From NCBI GenBank assembly GCA_002722175.1, contig PBKU01000018.1, positions 1 through 64,000 on the forward strand: 64,000 nucleotides of DNA, read 5' to 3'. The position numbers were made by a program, and so were the translations under genes. The DNA is from Magnetovibrio sp. (lineage in GTDB: Bacteria > Pseudomonadota > Alphaproteobacteria > Rhodospirillales > Casp-alpha2). The notes under the pieces were generated by a model that worked only from the letters and a program-made list of their open reading frames with translations, had not been told where the DNA came from and ran no database searches. Shown here in pieces: positions 9,316-40,300 of the stretch (positions are counted from its first letter, which is position 1; each line of letters starts with the position of its first letter).

Positions 9316-9373
9316 AAAAAAATGCCAACATCGCTTGACTAGGTTGTTAAAAAGCATCACAGTAAATTGATCC

Positions 9374-9472
9374 ACGGGGAGCCTCTAAATAACAATGGGG
9401 CTGAGATTTCGCCAGACACATTGGTAAAAACCCGTTGAACCTGAACCAGTTAATTCTGGCGTAGGGATGGAG
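9374..9472 (+). promoter_or_regulatory. TPP riboswitch (THI element)
   Basis: The conserved blocks of the thiamin pyrophosphate aptamer are present in order: GGGGAGCC (9377-9384), GGGGCTGAGA (9397-9406), ACCCGTTGAACCTGA (9430-9444) and CCAGTTAATTCTGGCGTAGGGA (9446-9467). The 3' edge carries GGAG (9469-9472), the apparent Shine-Dalgarno of the ATG at 9477, so TPP binding would hide the ribosome-binding site. No terminator hairpin lies between aptamer and start codon, which favours control of translation initiation. Confidence 0.96.
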
Positions 9473-9476
9473 CGTA

Positions 9477-10229
9477 ATGGTGATTCTGAACAGCAAATCT
9501 AAAGAAGAAGACCTTGTTTTAACAGTTAGAAATCTTTCTTACAAAGATAGAGTACTTTTTGACGAACTTGAGTTTGTCCTGGAAAAAGGTAAATGGACGA
9601 GCTTAATGGGCATTAGTGGAATTGGAAAGACTACGATTCTGCGACTTATTGCAGGCTTGGCCTCAGAATTTTCATCTGGAACATCTATAGTACACTCCCG
9701 AAAGATATCCGGGGAATTAGCATATATGTCCCAAGTTGACTTATTGTTTCCATGGTTAAACGTTTTAGATAATGTTACTTTAGGGGCTCGTTTGAGGGGG
9801 GAGGAGTGTTCCAAAGATAGAGCGTTGGAATTGTTACGTAGCGTTGGCCTTTACGCCAATGCTGCGGACATGCCTTCATCCCTCTCAGTGGGTATGCGTC
9901 AAAGAGTTGCTTTAGCACGGACACTAATGGAAGACCGGCCATTTATTTTGATGGATGAACCATTTTCTTCCCTCGATTCTCTAACTAAAGTTCGGTTGCA
10001 AGATCTAGCCGCTGAGATGCTCCAAGATAAAACGGTTTTATTAGTAACGCATGATCCACTTGAGGCATATCGTCTTAGTGACAGTATTTATGTTCTTTCT
10101 GGTCAACCAGCCTGCCTTGATAGCACCATCAAACCTGCGGGTGCTCCTCCTCGCATGATTGAGAATTCTGAAGTGCTACAGGGCCAGGCAGAATTACTTG
10201 CTCGTCTATCGAAAGCTGAAGCACCATGA
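9477..10229 (+). CDS. thiZ: ABC transporter ATP-binding protein, ThiZ-like (thiamin precursor uptake)
   Basis: A 250-residue ATPase with Walker A GISGIGKTT (residues 45-53), signature LSVGM (136-140, in place of LSGGQ), Walker B ILMDEP (157-162) and switch His in VTHDPLEA. The short length without a C-terminal regulatory domain and the relation to TauB/SsuB-type ATPases fit ThiZ. The TPP riboswitch immediately upstream ties the operon to thiamin. It overlaps the permease gene by four bases (ATGA). Together with the permease and binding protein it should import a hydroxymethylpyrimidine-type precursor such as formylaminopyrimidine; that substrate is known for the family and inferred here. Confidence 0.92.
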   Translation: MVILNSKSKEEDLVLTVRNLSYKDRVLFDELEFVLEKGKWTSLMGISGIGKTTILRLIAGLASEFSSGTSIVHSRKISGELAYMSQVDLLFPWLNVLDNVTLGARLRGEECSKDRALELLRSVGLYANAADMPSSLSVGMRQRVALARTLMEDRPFILMDEPFSSLDSLTKVRLQDLAAEMLQDKTVLLVTHDPLEAYRLSDSIYVLSGQPACLDSTIKPAGAPPRMIENSEVLQGQAELLARLSKAEAP

Positions 10230-10957
10230 AACTATTCCGGATATTTACAATAGCTATTGCTTTCCTCGTGGCGTGGCATTTATTTACCTTGTTGACGGGG
10301 ATTGAGTTTTTTATTTTACCACCCCCAGCTCATGTGGGCACTGCTTTAATCAATCATTCCTATGATCTGGCCGGGCATGCTCTAACAACCTTTATCGAAA
10401 TAATGCTAGGCCTCATTTTTGGAACAGGTCTAGGCGCGTTATGTGCGTTAGTCATGATGGTCTTTCAATCTGTTAGGCTTTGGCTCTTGCCGGTCTTAGT
10501 AATAAGTCAAGCGGTCCCAGTTTTTGCATTGGCGCCAATTTTAGTGATTTGGTTGGGTTATGGAATGGCTTCCAAAATAGCAATGGCCACCTTGATTATT
10601 TTTTTTCCGGTTACAGCGACAATGTTTGATGGTTTACGGCAGACAAAACAAGGCTTTCTTGACTTGGCGAATTCAATGAATGCATCCCGTTCGGCTATCT
10701 TAATTCACGTTCGTATACCGTCGGCACTGCCCTCCTTTGCATCGGGGTTGCGTGTAGCAACTGCAGTTGCACCGATTGGTGCAATTGTGGGGGAATGGGT
10801 AGGATCTAGCGAAGGATTGGGTTTTATCATGCTGCATGCGAATGCGCGGTTGCAAATCGACTTAATGTTCGCTGCATTATTAATATTAGCAATTATGGCT
10901 GTAACACTATATTTCACAATAGATCAACTTCTTCAAAAGGTTATCATTCAACATTAA
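10226..10957 (+). CDS. thiX: ABC transporter permease, ThiX-like
   Basis: A 243-residue inner-membrane permease of the TauC/SsuC/ThiX type with about six hydrophobic segments. The ATPase-contact loop reads DLANSMNASRSAILIHVRIPSALPSFASGLRVATAVAPIGAIVGEW around residues 150-196, the standard EAA loop followed by the AxAPIGAIVGEW signature of this subfamily. Its start ATG overlaps the stop of thiZ (ATGA), so the two are translationally coupled. It belongs to the riboswitch-controlled operon and should be repressed when TPP is plentiful. Confidence 0.92.
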   Translation: MKLFRIFTIAIAFLVAWHLFTLLTGIEFFILPPPAHVGTALINHSYDLAGHALTTFIEIMLGLIFGTGLGALCALVMMVFQSVRLWLLPVLVISQAVPVFALAPILVIWLGYGMASKIAMATLIIFFPVTATMFDGLRQTKQGFLDLANSMNASRSAILIHVRIPSALPSFASGLRVATAVAPIGAIVGEWVGSSEGLGFIMLHANARLQIDLMFAALLILAIMAVTLYFTIDQLLQKVIIQH

Positions 10958-10992
10958 TAATTACTAAAGATTTGATGGAGATAAGAAGTATC

Positions 10993-11937
10993 ATGAAAAA
11001 ATTAATGTTCTTTTTAGGCGCCTTCCTTTTTCAACTTTCACCCACACATCTTGCTGCTGAGAGTAGAATAACGGTTCTCCTCGATTGGTTTGTTAACCCT
11101 GACCACGCTCCGCTGATCGTAGCCAAAGAGAAAGGATATTTCAAAGAAAAGGGGCTAGTTGTTTCGTTCGTAGCTCCTGCAGACCCGAACGATCCGCCAA
11201 AGTTAGTTGCAGCCAACAAAGCTGAGATAGCAGTTTCCTACCAACCCCAACTATATATTCAAGTGAATGCAGGTCTCCCCTTAATTCGTATCGGCACTTT
11301 GATCAGCACTCCCCTCAATTCGTTGGTGGTTTTAGCTGATGGACCTATAAAGAGTATCTCGGACTTTAAGGGAAAGAAGATTGGATATTCAGTTGGAGGT
11401 TTTGAAGACGCGCTATTAAAAGCAATGTTGAACAAATCTGGTCTATACCTATCTGATGTTGAGTTGATTAATGTGAATTTTTCATTATCTCCGGCTCTTA
11501 TTAGCGGCAAGGTGGATGGTGTGATCGGAGCGTTCAGAAATTTTGAACTTAATCAGATGGATATAGTAAAACATCCAGGAAGGGCATTTTTCCCTGAAGA
11601 AGAGGGTGTTCCAGCCTACGATGAGCTTATCCTAGTAGCCAGCAAGCAAAAAATTCATAATGCGCAATACCGATCTTTTCTTGAGGGGGTAGAAAAAGGT
11701 GTTCAATTTCTAGTTAACTATCCGAAAGAAAGTTGGAATTTGTTCATTGGGAAATACAAAGCACTAAATGATGAACTTAATCGACGGGCGTGGGGAGACA
11801 CCTTGCCGCGATTTGCGCTTCGTCCCGCTGCCCTTGATAAAGCGCGTTATGTTCGTTTTGGAAAATTTCTCAAGAAACAGGGCCTGATAGAAATGGTTCT
11901 TCCAGTCGAGGATTATGCAATTGAGTTACCGCACTAA
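10993..11937 (+). CDS. thiY: Periplasmic binding protein, ThiY/NMT1-like
   Basis: A 314-residue binding protein of the THI5/NMT1 group. The signal peptide starts MKKLMFFLGAFLFQLSP with likely cleavage near AAES, and the mature protein begins ITVLLDWFVNPDHAPLIVAKEKGYF, a hallmark of HMP/formylaminopyrimidine-binding ThiY proteins. TTG and ATG codons lie in frame at 10972 and 10975, but the ATG at 10993 gives a proper signal peptide and has GGAG and AAG-rich bases upstream. It is last in the thiZXY operon and ends three bases from the convergent rhodanese gene. No thiC, tenA or thiD lies nearby, so the imported compound must be processed by enzymes encoded elsewhere. Confidence 0.92.
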   Translation: MKKLMFFLGAFLFQLSPTHLAAESRITVLLDWFVNPDHAPLIVAKEKGYFKEKGLVVSFVAPADPNDPPKLVAANKAEIAVSYQPQLYIQVNAGLPLIRIGTLISTPLNSLVVLADGPIKSISDFKGKKIGYSVGGFEDALLKAMLNKSGLYLSDVELINVNFSLSPALISGKVDGVIGAFRNFELNQMDIVKHPGRAFFPEEEGVPAYDELILVASKQKIHNAQYRSFLEGVEKGVQFLVNYPKESWNLFIGKYKALNDELNRRAWGDTLPRFALRPAALDKARYVRFGKFLKKQGLIEMVLPVEDYAIELPH

Positions 11938-15285: not shown

Positions 15286-17331
15286 TTATAAGTAGTGGCC
15301 AATAAATATCATTGTAACAATTACCATTGTTCCTAGAACCGATATTATGGCAGTGACTCTTTCGCCTGCTGTTTCGGCTTCGGCTAATTGTTCCTTCAAC
15401 CTGTCTTCTATTTTCACAGCCTCACTATGAGCTTCCGCGTAACGTTCTTTGGCCTCATTATAATCATCCCAGTCTTGTCGCCGTAAATCAGCATCATCAA
15501 CAAACTCAAATAAATCCGGAAGACTTCCTTTGCGAACTAGCTTTGGAATATCACGCTCAAGCTTTCTCCTTGTAGTTACACTATAGTAGCTATCGATTAC
15601 TGGTCCCAATAGACCTCCGACCCAGCCTGCTAGACCTAACAATGGCTCTGGATGGAGCTTGTACTGCATAAAAGCAAGTAGGGACATCATGCCAACAATT
15701 GAAGTTTGTTGCTTAGTTGATGCTAATGCTCTTAGGTGGGGCTGTATATCTTCATCGAACCGAGTTGCAATGAAAGCAGCGATGTGTCGGTCAATGGGTA
15801 TAAGTTTTGAATCAATGTTAGCGGATACGTTATCAAGCGCTGGTAACAAATCTTCAATGGAGATCACACATTCACTTGAAATAAGTGAACTTTGACATGG
15901 AAGCCCAGGATTAAGTTTGTATAAGCATCGATCAATCCCGTACCCAAGCTGCTTTGATTTCAAGAAATTTCTAGATTGGTTAAATACTATCTTTAGCTCT
16001 GGTGATATGTGGCGAGCCGAGGGCTGTGCTTTTATCCAATAAGTAAAGAGTTCCAAAAGAATTACCTCTATACCCGCCTTTGCGTTTCCTTTTCGTAAAA
16101 GATCAACGGCGATCGCCGTGCCGAAACCGTTTGGGTAACAGGAAAAATCTTTAAAACGGAGAGGTCCAGTGGAATCAAGAACCAGTACAGTTCGAAACAC
16201 TAAATAATCATCACGGCCCTGTGTGGTGCCCTTATTATAAGAGGCAACCTCAAGCAAATTATTAATCGCATCAGCCATTTCTGTTTCTCCTACAGAGTGC
16301 CTGAGCCATCTTTGGAATTCATCATCCTTAATTGAGCGGATAGCATCGCGCACGTTTCTGCTAAAGGCATATGCGAGTGCTTTTGGATTAGTATGTTCAT
16401 AACCGTTAAACAAGAACGGTTCTTTCGCCCGGTGTGGAGAAATATTTTTTATCGGGGGCTGTTGGCGTCCGTTAATCCAGATATCTAGTTTTTCCAGATC
16501 CCATTGTTCATCAGGATCATCACATAACAGCCCGCGAAAAACTTCTGTAAGTGAAGAGTGTGTTTCCATGTTCCCACAAATGCTAGCGTAACTACCTTGT
16601 TCAAATTTTTGATAGATTATATCGGTATCACTATGTGTCTCTAGTGAACTATGCCCTGTGACGACGATAAAGATTGTAACTCCTAAAGCATAAAGGTCAT
16701 CAGATGTGGTTCCAGGCCCGCGGCCACCTGGGGAGGAGGTAGCCCGATGCATCGGTTCAACTAATGCAGTCTGATCAAATCCAGGAGGACCTGTAACGCA
16801 CTCTCCAAGAACAAGTTTTTGACATTCCTCATCTAGGAAATAGACATTGTCAGGACGGATGGAATGATGGGTTATCCCCCTTGCTGAAAGTTCTGCAATC
16901 GCTGTTGCTAATGGTTCAACAATACGCCGAGGTATATCATATTCAGCAAGACGGGTAGTATCTTCTGTGTCGGGGTCAACAACGTTTCCCCCCATAGGGT
17001 ATTCATAGACAACCACCATAATCTTTATACCTAAAGGTGGCCAAAAAACAGTTCCCCACTCAACTAGTGGTAGAAGACCAGTAATATGCTCTCCTTTAAG
17101 GGTATCCATAACATCCAGTCGGGGTGGTAATTCAGGAGTGCAGATTAAAGCAAACAAATTACGTCCAATATCTCGGCGGTCTTCAACAGAAAAAGCTCGA
17201 GCTGACGGTGAATCTAATTGGGGAATCGGTGCATTCGCATCAATATAATACCTGCCTAGAAGAAGAGCTGGTTGATTCTCTGTACTTCCATTCTCAGAAG
17301 ATATTCGAGACGATTTAGATGCTTCTGCCAT
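15286..17331 (-). CDS. Membrane-anchored protein kinase-like protein, predicted pseudokinase
   Basis: A protein of about 681 residues whose N-terminal third follows a eukaryotic-like kinase layout: hinge VVVYEYPMGG (107-116), catalytic loop THHSIRPDN (154-162) and helix F region SDDLYALGVTIFIVVTG (210-226). The catalytic Asp of HRD is Ser157, the following Lys is Arg, and DFG reads GEC (176-178); Asn162 is kept. No clear VAIK Lys is seen. It is therefore probably inactive as a kinase. The middle part is helical and unrecognised, and the C-terminus has a charged, coiled-coil-like stretch and a final membrane helix (VTAIISVLGTMVIVTMIF). I took ATG 17331; TTG 17364 would add 11 residues. It is followed 26 bases on by a small membrane protein and preceded by purA. 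Confidence 0.75.
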   Translation of the reverse strand: MAEASKSSRISSENGSTENQPALLLGRYYIDANAPIPQLDSPSARAFSVEDRRDIGRNLFALICTPELPPRLDVMDTLKGEHITGLLPLVEWGTVFWPPLGIKIMVVVYEYPMGGNVVDPDTEDTTRLAEYDIPRRIVEPLATAIAELSARGITHHSIRPDNVYFLDEECQKLVLGECVTGPPGFDQTALVEPMHRATSSPGGRGPGTTSDDLYALGVTIFIVVTGHSSLETHSDTDIIYQKFEQGSYASICGNMETHSSLTEVFRGLLCDDPDEQWDLEKLDIWINGRQQPPIKNISPHRAKEPFLFNGYEHTNPKALAYAFSRNVRDAIRSIKDDEFQRWLRHSVGETEMADAINNLLEVASYNKGTTQGRDDYLVFRTVLVLDSTGPLRFKDFSCYPNGFGTAIAVDLLRKGNAKAGIEVILLELFTYWIKAQPSARHISPELKIVFNQSRNFLKSKQLGYGIDRCLYKLNPGLPCQSSLISSECVISIEDLLPALDNVSANIDSKLIPIDRHIAAFIATRFDEDIQPHLRALASTKQQTSIVGMMSLLAFMQYKLHPEPLLGLAGWVGGLLGPVIDSYYSVTTRRKLERDIPKLVRKGSLPDLFEFVDDADLRRQDWDDYNEAKERYAEAHSEAVKIEDRLKEQLAEAETAGERVTAIISVLGTMVIVTMIFIGHYL

Positions 17332-38191: not shown

Positions 38192-39025
38192 ATGGGAACC
38201 AAAAATCAATTTTGCAAAAATTTTACTGTGCAAGTGGTTAGTTGCTTTCTAGCTTTTTTCTTTTTGCAGCAAAAATATCTGTATGCCGATAGTACTGTTA
38301 TGATTTTAGGAAGTGAAGTTACACCTTCACTTCAAACTTATATTACTACGAGCAGCGTAAATATTCGACAGTCAGCGTCTGTTAAAAGTAAAAAGATTGG
38401 CCATTTTAAGGCGGGAAAGCGAATAAAATCATTAGGGGTAACAAAGGATGGTTTTTGGGTTGTGGCAGAATCAAAGGGAAAACCAATAGGCTTTGTTTAT
38501 CAAAAGGTGCTTCAAATTGTTCTCGATGGAGCTTTAGATGAAGACTTGGTAGGCAATATAAAGCTTAGTGGGAATCTAGCCTGTGGCTATAAAATTCACT
38601 TTGTTGGGAAAAGTCAAGTGGAAGGCCAGAATTTCTCTATGGCTGACTATGATGTCAATCTTTTCTGTGCCAAGGGAAAAACTGAAATTATTTTTCCGGC
38701 TCAAATGTTCTTAGCGGAGACACCTAATTATCTAGAAAAATCAAGTCCTGTATTTCAAATAAATCTGGATGTTTTAGACAACTACCATGCAGCTAATGAT
38801 GTTTTTTCTACAATAATGTATTTTCATCCAAAAAAAAACGAAGTCATTCTTGGGGGCACAAGTTTCCTTGATTATGGAAAACGAGAGAATGTAAATAAGA
38901 CCCAATCAGCTAACAACCTCGAAAAAGCACTTCGCGGATCCTTGAAGTTAGCATTGCATGTTTGGAATGGTCGAGCGTGGTCAGATATTATAAAACATTC
39001 AAAGAATAGAAAGGAAGACCTTTAA
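38192..39025 (+). CDS. Exported bacterial SH3-domain protein
   Basis: A 277-residue protein with an N-terminal hydrophobic signal segment (about residues 10-28). A bacterial SH3 domain spans residues 48-105: YITTSSVNIRQSASVKSKKIGHFKAGKRI...FWVVAESKGKPIGFVYQKVL. Such domains often bind peptidoglycan or peptides. The C-terminal 170 residues are beta-rich and not recognised, with a Cys pair (CGYKIHF...LFC) that could form a disulfide. AGGAAA lies upstream of ATG 38192. The gene is convergent with the cNMP/MORN gene. Confidence 0.8.
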   Translation: MGTKNQFCKNFTVQVVSCFLAFFFLQQKYLYADSTVMILGSEVTPSLQTYITTSSVNIRQSASVKSKKIGHFKAGKRIKSLGVTKDGFWVVAESKGKPIGFVYQKVLQIVLDGALDEDLVGNIKLSGNLACGYKIHFVGKSQVEGQNFSMADYDVNLFCAKGKTEIIFPAQMFLAETPNYLEKSSPVFQINLDVLDNYHAANDVFSTIMYFHPKKNEVILGGTSFLDYGKRENVNKTQSANNLEKALRGSLKLALHVWNGRAWSDIIKHSKNRKEDL

Positions 39026-39113
39026 GTAAATTCGCCTAAGGACATAACGACTCCGTAGCTAAAATATTCATTCAAACACTTCTAGCGCCCTCATTTTAGA
39101 GGTTCAGTTCAAG

Positions 39114-39398
39114 CTACTTGTAGCTTTTTTTAAAAGTATCGTTTTCAAAAAATCCTTCTAGGATCTTTCCATCTGTATATTCATATACGCCCTTCCCATG
39201 GCGTTTCCCGTTTAGCCATTCACCGGTATATGTGGCTCCATTAGGATAGATATACGTCCCAAAACATTTTGTCCAGGTGGCCTCATCATATATACCCTGG
39301 CATTGTGGGAGGGGTTTTTCTTTTTGGTCATCAAGTTGCTTGAATCCTGAAGTTTGACGATGATCAGAAGATCGCGCGTTTTCAACTAGAATATCCAT
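39114..39398 (-). CDS. MORN-repeat segment, second reading frame of a split gene
   Basis: A 94-residue reading frame with MORN-type repeats: CFGTYIYPNGATYTGEWLNG, then KRHGKGVYEYTDGKILEGFF. Its first codon ATG (39398-39396) overlaps the stop of the upstream frame as TAATG. However, the residues encoded in this frame before the ATG (KLEKADSFLRG, 39434-39402) continue the cyclic-nucleotide-binding domain exactly as homologues do. The two frames therefore probably belong to one gene joined by a -1 shift at 39431-39437, or one broken by a single-base loss. Re-initiation at the ATG, giving a separate MORN protein, is the alternative. Confidence 0.75.
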   Translation of the reverse strand: MDILVENARSSDHRQTSGFKQLDDQKEKPLPQCQGIYDEATWTKCFGTYIYPNGATYTGEWLNGKRHGKGVYEYTDGKILEGFFENDTFKKSYK

Positions 39399-39703
39399 TA
39401 AGCCGCGTAAAAAACTGTCAGCCTTTTCAAGTTTTTTTGAAAGGTTAATTTATTGACACGGATTATTGAGACTGTTGTCTTAGCTTTAGCGCTTGCCATT
39501 CTGGGTTTCGAATCGATTAGTGCCAATTCTCCAAATAAACAATTTTCATTGAGTATAGAAAGGATTTCTCTTTTACCATTAATGGTTTTTGAAATTTCAA
39601 CTTCGCCAGACTCTACGATGTAGGCACAGTTTTCTTCATCACCTTCTTCAAAGATTGTTCTTCCAGATTCAAATATTCTTCGATCAAGAACGGGTTTTCC
39701 CAT
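39398..39703 (-). CDS. Cyclic-nucleotide-binding domain protein, first reading frame of a split gene
   Basis: A 101-residue cNMP-binding domain: IFESGRTIFEEGDEENCAYIVESGEVEI followed by the cassette FGELALIDSKPRMASA with the phosphate-binding Arg. The domain breaks off after NKLTFQKN: the 0 frame ends LKRLTVFYAA, while the -1 frame reads LEKADSFLRGLMDILVENAR, the expected C-terminal helix. The zero-frame codons at the break are CAA-AAA-AAC. So the full product is likely about 200 residues: a cNMP domain plus the MORN repeats encoded at 39114. There is no DNA-binding domain. ATG 39703 is the only good start. Confidence 0.8.
   Translation of the reverse strand: MGKPVLDRRIFESGRTIFEEGDEENCAYIVESGEVEISKTINGKREILSILNENCLFGELALIDSKPRMASAKAKTTVSIIRVNKLTFQKNLKRLTVFYAA
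39431..39437 (-). other. Candidate -1 frameshift site A AAA AAC
   Basis: On the minus strand the heptamer A-AAA-AAC lies in the exact X-XXY-YYZ phase of the upstream frame (codons CAA AAA AAC). Slipping back one base yields Lys-Lys-Leu-Glu-Lys-Ala-Asp, restoring the cNMP C-terminal helix and joining the MORN frame. No strong downstream stem is evident. A one-base deletion in the A run, biological or from sequencing, would look the same. Confidence 0.5.
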
Positions 39704-40012
39704 TTAACTACCTATTTAATGGCTTACATGTAATTCTTAATGTCAGCATTACACTATTCAACAAATTTGTCTCGTAAAAATGATTTGTATGGAGACTAAT
39801 GAAGTGAGCATCGGTCATGGCACTCAATTAAATCAGAATTTTGCCGCAAGCGCATGTCTGGTATTAGTTTATGACAAATTTCTTGTGGTCTATTTTCACA
39901 TATCAAATAATGCTTTAGCAGATTTTAAGCCGCTTTGGCTTGCAGGAAAAACTAGCGAGTGATAGTTTCCACCTGCAAAATTTTTTCATTTTTAAAAAGA
40001 GACCTTAAATTA
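39704..40012. other. Intergenic region without a supported gene
   Basis: These 309 bases separate the divergent cNMP/MORN gene and gatC. A 60-codon frame on the plus strand (39780-39962) has no ribosome-binding site and no recognisable content. The region should contain promoters for both directions; I see no clear consensus. Confidence 0.5.
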
Positions 40013-40300
40013 ATGTCTTTTGACCGTAAAGTTGTTTATAACGTAGCAAATCTTGCACGAATTCGTGTTGCTGAAGAAAACATCGATAATTTAGCTACGG
40101 AATTGAGCGCCATTATCAAATGGGTCGAGCAGTTAAATGAGGTAGATACTTATACTGTTCAGGCAATGAATAATGTGACGAATTCGACCCTTCCCCAAAG
40201 AAATGACAGCGTTCTTGATGGTGGCTACCCCAAGGATGTTTTGGCAAATGCCCCAGAGAGCGTTGATGATTATTTTACGGTACCTAAAGTAGTGGAATGA
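40013..40300 (+). CDS. gatC: Asp-tRNA(Asn)/Glu-tRNA(Gln) amidotransferase subunit C
   Basis: A 95-residue subunit that holds GatA and GatB together in the amidotransferase that converts Glu-tRNA(Gln), and often Asp-tRNA(Asn), to the amidated forms. The family pattern [36 protein letters not shown] is clear. An in-frame extension to 39959 exists, but homologues start at ATG 40013. The stop overlaps gatA by four bases (ATGA). Confidence 0.96.

Follow-up and report, generated by a model that had tools for sequence, protein, structure and literature searches.

A Probable One-Base Frame Break in a cNMP-Binding and MORN Repeat Gene of Magnetovibrio sp.

Introduction

The DNA analysed here is a stretch of 64,000 nucleotides from Magnetovibrio sp. 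(contig PBKU01000018.1, positions 1 to 64,000), referred to below as the window. On its minus strand, an open reading frame (ORF1) for a cNMP-binding domain stops before the domain is complete, and a second one (ORF2), carrying a MORN repeat, starts at that very stop codon. A first-pass annotation had offered three readings of this arrangement: a programmed -1 frameshift at a slippery heptamer, giving a fused product alongside a short form; two ORFs coupled in translation through the sequence TAATG; or a single gene that has lost one base. The question raised by the locus is which of these accounts for a conserved domain being written in two frames, and what kind of protein the gene may originally have encoded.

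Layout of the Locus

The features of the locus are collected in Table 1; the coordinates and minus-strand frames are as first described. The two frames overlap at ACC TTT CAA AAA AAC TTG, and past this point ORF1 runs into a short 0-frame tail (LKRLTVFYAA), which forms its C-terminus and does not fit the family. No terminator-like site was found from 38950 to 40050, and promoter-like sites in the same interval occur at the level of shuffled sequence (3 against 3.2 expected).

Table 1. Features of the cNMP–MORN locus, in window coordinates.
Feature	Coordinates	Strand	Evidence or remark
ORF1, cNMP-binding domain protein, 101 aa	39703..39398	minus	PF00027, E 7.9e-21; FGELALIDSKPRMAS read directly
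-1 frame, open over 111 codons: C-helix, linker and MORN	39114..39449	minus	
ORF2 from its ATG, 94 aa: helix end, linker and MORN	39114..39398	minus	
Slippery-type heptamer A_AAA_AAC, in phase (0 frame CAA AAA AAC TTG)	39431..39437	minus	
Full A run, seven A's	39432-39438	minus	
-1 frame codons of the C-terminal helix of the cNMP domain (LEKADSFLRGLMDILVENAR)	39372..39431	minus	D96, F98 and R111 kept
TAATG overlap of the ORF1 stop and the ATG of the MORN ORF	39400-39396	minus	
Cap LPQCQGIYDEATWTKCFG, ahead of the MORN repeat	39258..39311	minus	
MORN repeat (PF02493)	39168..39230	minus	E 6.7e-10

Between ruvX and the cNMP gene, the plus strand (38192-39025) encodes a protein of 277 aa with an SH3_3 domain, a probable signal peptide (by eye) and no NCBIfam match. 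Elsewhere on the plus strand of the window, a TPP riboswitch (9365-9484) stands ahead of the genes at 9465-11934, which encode an ABC ATPase, a permease and an NMT1/THI5-like binding protein; together, riboswitch and transporter set are probably an ordinary operon for the uptake of thiamine precursors.

The cNMP-Binding Domain and Its C-Terminal Helix

ORF1 matches PF00027 with 74.3 bits (cut-off 27.5), over positions 2-86 of the 89 of the profile, and its phosphate-binding cassette has a Glu and an Arg that can be recognised by eye, presumably with their usual role. When compared with the named NCBIfam subfamilies of cNMP-binding proteins (CRP, NtcA and others), eight families were reached at E ≤0.01 and none above its cut-off, the best score being that of CRP (30.7 bits against a cut-off of 266). 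After the beta barrel, the ORF1 frame lacks the C-terminal helix, which is encoded in the -1 frame only, in a stretch that we take to be this helix from solved cNMP domains. Some of the solved relatives found by sequence have matches that run through the helix, among them the cNMP domain of Bd1971 (6hq3), which covers residues 14-111 of the query.

When ORF1 is continued in the -1 frame, the resulting joined protein finds matches at E ≤0.001 in 61 of 61 genomes (60 relatives and its own), the closest ones with 55% identity (G036; G062). Forty-three homologue loci obtained from searches with this joined query were read at the DNA level, matches without fetched DNA being left out; a motif-based reading of the junction had been possible for 25 of the 30 loci given to it. 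Residues 86-111, which include the junction, align without gaps in all 43, and D96, F98 and R111, three residues that the -1 frame of the window gene has kept, are identical in every one of them. The claim that the truncated domain is completed in the -1 frame was thus borne out. By comparison, the 0-frame tail, placed without gaps, has six of its 11 residues unseen in homologues.

Residue 111 is reached without a stop in 42 of the 43 loci. The remaining one is L021 (G032:C155:7070-7399), in which an in-frame TAG lies three codons past the position aligned with the break; the conserved helix is intact beyond it, making this another gene interrupted where the C-helix begins, and the TAG may itself be an error. 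Three further loci from the phylum search (L105-L107) are uninterrupted at the junction; position 98 is Leu in L107, which is a second copy in G058. Most homologues are short, with at most six residues between the end of the match and the stop in 31 of the 43 loci, although a few of the matches pass an earlier stop. A paralogue of this single-domain kind is also found in the same genome, on C36, as an uninterrupted frame of 119 aa with 42% identity over residues 4-113, and its presence suggests that loss of the cNMP–MORN copy might be tolerated.

The single-domain PF00027 proteins of the same family and order (~120 aa) have the domain and the FGE(L/M)ALID-PRMA signature in common with the window gene. 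They carry the C-helix DPF.RGLL.IL....R in one frame, whereas the window gene loses the frame where the helix begins, and they mostly end soon after it, whereas the window gene goes on into a linker and the MORN part. As for gene order, nine other queries from the window had no match on nine stretches from relatives, on which the two cNMP pieces did match.

It is the matching of a single domain across two frames that exceeds chance. The conserved helix can still be read in the -1 frame, so the break must either be of recent date, stem from an assembly error or be bridged during expression. Residues of the window gene that are unseen in homologues amount to 6 of 86 before the break and 4 of 21 after it (S97, M103, D104 and A110; Fisher p 0.10), against homologue averages of 3.8% before and 3.3% after; one uninterrupted homologue (L079) has five unseen residues among the 21 that follow the site. 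If constraint has relaxed after the break, the sign of it is weak and not significant.

The MORN Part and Its Join to the cNMP Domain

The downstream ORF matches PF02493 with 38.7 bits (cut-off 22.5). The same genome encodes other MORN proteins, on C14, C39 and C47, whose matches to the joined protein include the cap LPQCQGIYDEATWTKCFGTY, at 34-40% identity. Those on C39 and C14 begin with what by eye appears to be a signal or lipoprotein leader, whereas the cap at this locus follows the cNMP domain with no leader. A 697-aa frame on C14 (L102, G000:C14:114500-118500) carries capped MORN repeats and, by eye, repeats of pentapeptide-type appearance.

The join itself was not found in the other loci and genomes searched. 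No MORN motif was detected by regular expression on either strand of the fetched flanks of the 43 homologue loci, and none of 29 other MORN loci of the family (24 from relatives and five from the same genome) has a cNMP relative within the fetched DNA. The joined query had no match past residue 129 in 317 genomes of the order, 385 of the class and 398 of the phylum, sets that overlap and include the genome itself, at E limits of 1e-27, 1e-26 and 1e-22, respectively; the MORN cap starts at query residue 132, and a weaker, separate MORN match would escape a search of this kind. At looser E limits some matches extend to residues 134-137. Three loci were considered as fusions and rejected: L023, L033 and L104 align as far as residues 156, 150 and 139 with 9, 13 and 18 gaps, and they were not counted because each alignment passes a stop at residue 111-114. 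A literature search for MORN together with a cyclic nucleotide-binding domain in bacteria turned up a single listed paper, on Tetrahymena.

The proposal of an original cNMP/MORN fusion is supported by the continuity of the helix with the linker; none of the relatives examined has such a fusion. Judged from these sequence comparisons, the architecture looks lineage-specific, and it is the sole unusual feature of the locus, mildly so.

The A Run, the Heptamer and the Assembly

The break does coincide with an in-phase A_AAA_AAC, as had been noted, but this coincidence is not beyond chance, and neither is the heptamer alone. The genome, of 2.79 Mb, contains CAAAAAAAC 207 times, and a sample of its long ORFs (open from stop to stop over no fewer than 150 aa, drawn from the window and nine other stretches) holds 40 other in-phase copies of A_AAA_AAC in 207,639 nt, the cNMP–MORN site lying below the length limit and being uncounted among them. 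Inside these ORFs there are 104 runs of seven A's and 35 of eight. When the loss of one base was simulated, an in-phase slippery heptamer was left in 24 of the 35 A8 runs and in 50 of the 104 A7 runs. The outcome for A8 means that an indel in a run of A's would be expected to leave a heptamer at the break, and, together with the many in-phase heptamers of this A-rich genome, it turns the combination of heptamer and frame break into weak evidence of recoding.

The homologues point in the same direction. The first-pass annotation had suggested looking among them for a shared heptamer, and there is none at the aligned codons in any of the 43, whose genes are uninterrupted but for the stop in L021. 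Some in-phase X_XXY_YYZ is present between residues 80 and 113 in nine of the 43, and in two loci a heptamer is in phase three codons downstream (A_AAA_AAC in L015, A_AAA_AAG in L072), with both genes uninterrupted. Members of the family are thus decoded in a single frame, and such heptamers can appear in their genes without breaking them.

The assembly was scanned for other frame breaks with a codon model over the window and ten stretches. The scan flagged the locus and, for the rest, mostly ordinary-looking gene junctions. Of the nine other sites that it flagged within the window, eight lie between genes that have domain matches of their own or form recognisable pairs, pyrB-pyrC and gatA being named by eye; the ninth is at 15298. 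Apart from this site, the window showed no other conserved gene that could be recognised as split. On the nine native stretches 25 sites were flagged, 24 of which were tabulated for start codons, the homology check having covered the window sites. The tenth stretch, L083 (G000:C5:1-14960), had ten flagged sites; its GC content is 0.594, against 0.405-0.428 in the nine others, and as a likely foreign contig binned into the genome it was excluded from the ORF counts. Taking into account the intact A runs and the lack of a second recognised split gene in the window, the assembly is not visibly indel-prone, which makes a real change more likely than an error, with the proviso that counting long ORFs only biases such an estimate toward intact ORFs.

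Comparison with very close sequences gave little. There is no other genome of the same genus among the 48 family genomes searched, and no strain-level relative was found. A DNA pattern spanning the junction had no match in collections of genome contigs and viral contigs, and a comparison of the locus with plasmid DNA had none either; the same genome, or very near ones, may be absent from all these collections. The same holds for a scan of the genome-contig collection with the joined protein, whose 57 pattern matches included no confirmed relative.

The Most Probable Explanation and Its Alternatives

Of the three options first offered, the loss of one base is the best supported, with the frame change present in none of the examined relatives, no stimulator found and a heptamer to be expected from such a loss. 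We consider it likely that the locus is a cNMP–MORN gene particular to this lineage, in whose A run an ordinary change of one base has broken the frame, be it an error or a recent indel. The original gene would have encoded one protein, in which a single-domain cNMP-binding protein, of a type common in the order, was followed by a C-terminal linker and a MORN repeat. A difference of one base in the length of the A run would then break the frame in the assembly, owing to a mistake in sequencing or assembly or to an indel of recent date. As the sequence is written, the gene would mainly yield a cNMP domain that lacks the C-helix, with the MORN part expressed at best weakly, by leaky re-initiation or slippage. 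Two things here are inferred: the recent or artefactual nature of the break, and a single original product.

This explanation agrees with what has been described for prokaryotic genomes. Frame transitions classed as non-orphan singletons are regarded as likely indel mutations or sequencing errors, and programmed sites are characterised by motifs conserved across a cluster (PMC3711429). The locus resembles such singletons in having one domain in two frames, a poly-A site and a transition absent in relatives; it differs from them in that its MORN part has no cNMP-joined counterpart in the examined relatives. Among the points on the other side, the Met codon that forms TAATG could be read as an adaptation to coupling, and a gene bridged by recoding would look the same, given that the -1 frame is undecayed, with its 111 codons open and the three invariant residues kept.

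The first of these points belongs to an alternative in which the frame change has left two genes, a truncated cNMP protein and a product made of the helix end and the MORN part, linked by termination-reinitiation at TAATG. The overlap is present, the ATG has arisen from a Met at a position where all 43 homologues have Leu or Ile, and the TAG of L021 could mean that loss of the C-helix is tolerated. Nevertheless, that stop may be an error with the helix intact beyond it, and the family pattern is still kept by the residues ahead of the ATG (KLEKADSFLRGL), although they would be untranslated in that frame, a conservation that coupling leaves unexplained. ORF2 would, moreover, start inside a helix, and no Shine-Dalgarno-like site precedes its ATG (best pairing -1.7 kcal/mol, scored, like the pairing values below, against an anti-Shine-Dalgarno sequence). 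We hold this two-gene reading to be unlikely.

Programmed -1 ribosomal frameshifting, which would give a fused cNMP–MORN protein beside the short form, is quite improbable. The locus does show two features of frameshift genes, an in-phase X_XXY_YYZ and an open -1 frame, here also conserved, and A_AAA_AAC is among the A-rich consensus heptamers named for clusters of frame transitions (PMC3711429). Beyond the motif and the intact frame, nothing supported this proposal. The heptamer is missing from the aligned site in every homologue and is common in the genome, and no stimulator of either kind sought (an SD-like site or a downstream stem-loop) was found at the locus, with folding done without pseudoknots. 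The best pairing upstream of the heptamer reaches -1.9 kcal/mol; ahead of the ORF1 start it is -3.8. The 102 nt from the last heptamer base fold at -21.8 kcal/mol, with a shuffle mean of -19.1 (z -0.82); windows of 60 bases placed 4-10 nt past the heptamer give raw folding energies of -7.6 to -11.2 kcal/mol, and a short hairpin rich in A-U and G-U pairs lies at spacer 4. It has been reported that the three best heptamers in E. coli, all ending in A_AA.G, yield ~0.3% frameshifting, strong stimulators aside, and no more than 3.7% when the 3' context is favourable (PMC4066793). The absence of a stimulator is no proof against frameshifting, since in an IS cluster with A_AAA_AAC frameshifting is proven with no established stimulator (PMC4066793). 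That IS-type cluster, A_AAA_AAC_1, shares with the locus the heptamer and the direction of the shift; the locus differs in having no match of transposase type and a motif that is not conserved.

Transcriptional slippage on the A run, restoring the frame in part of the mRNA, is very improbable, as the run has seven A's, An with n>7 being named for this mechanism (PMC3711429), and as runs of seven and eight A's occur in numbers inside the sampled long ORFs. There is a precedent in tssM1 of Citrobacter rodentium, where RNA polymerase slippage gives ~20-25% frameshifting; that gene is like the locus in having an A-run break shortly before a stop and two possible product lengths, but its run has 11 A's (PMC4256274).

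Conclusions

There is one more speculative possibility, which we rate as very improbable: an unstimulated A_AAA_AAC, newly evolved in this lineage, would yield a short sensor without C-helix and a rarer form completed by the helix and the MORN part. If this were true, frameshifting would set the ratio between a cNMP sensor with and one without a part that might bind membranes or partners. With the likelier one-base break, what the locus adds is a join of cNMP-binding domain and MORN repeat that is small and so far lineage-specific, and that merits annotation as a single gene with a disturbed reading frame.
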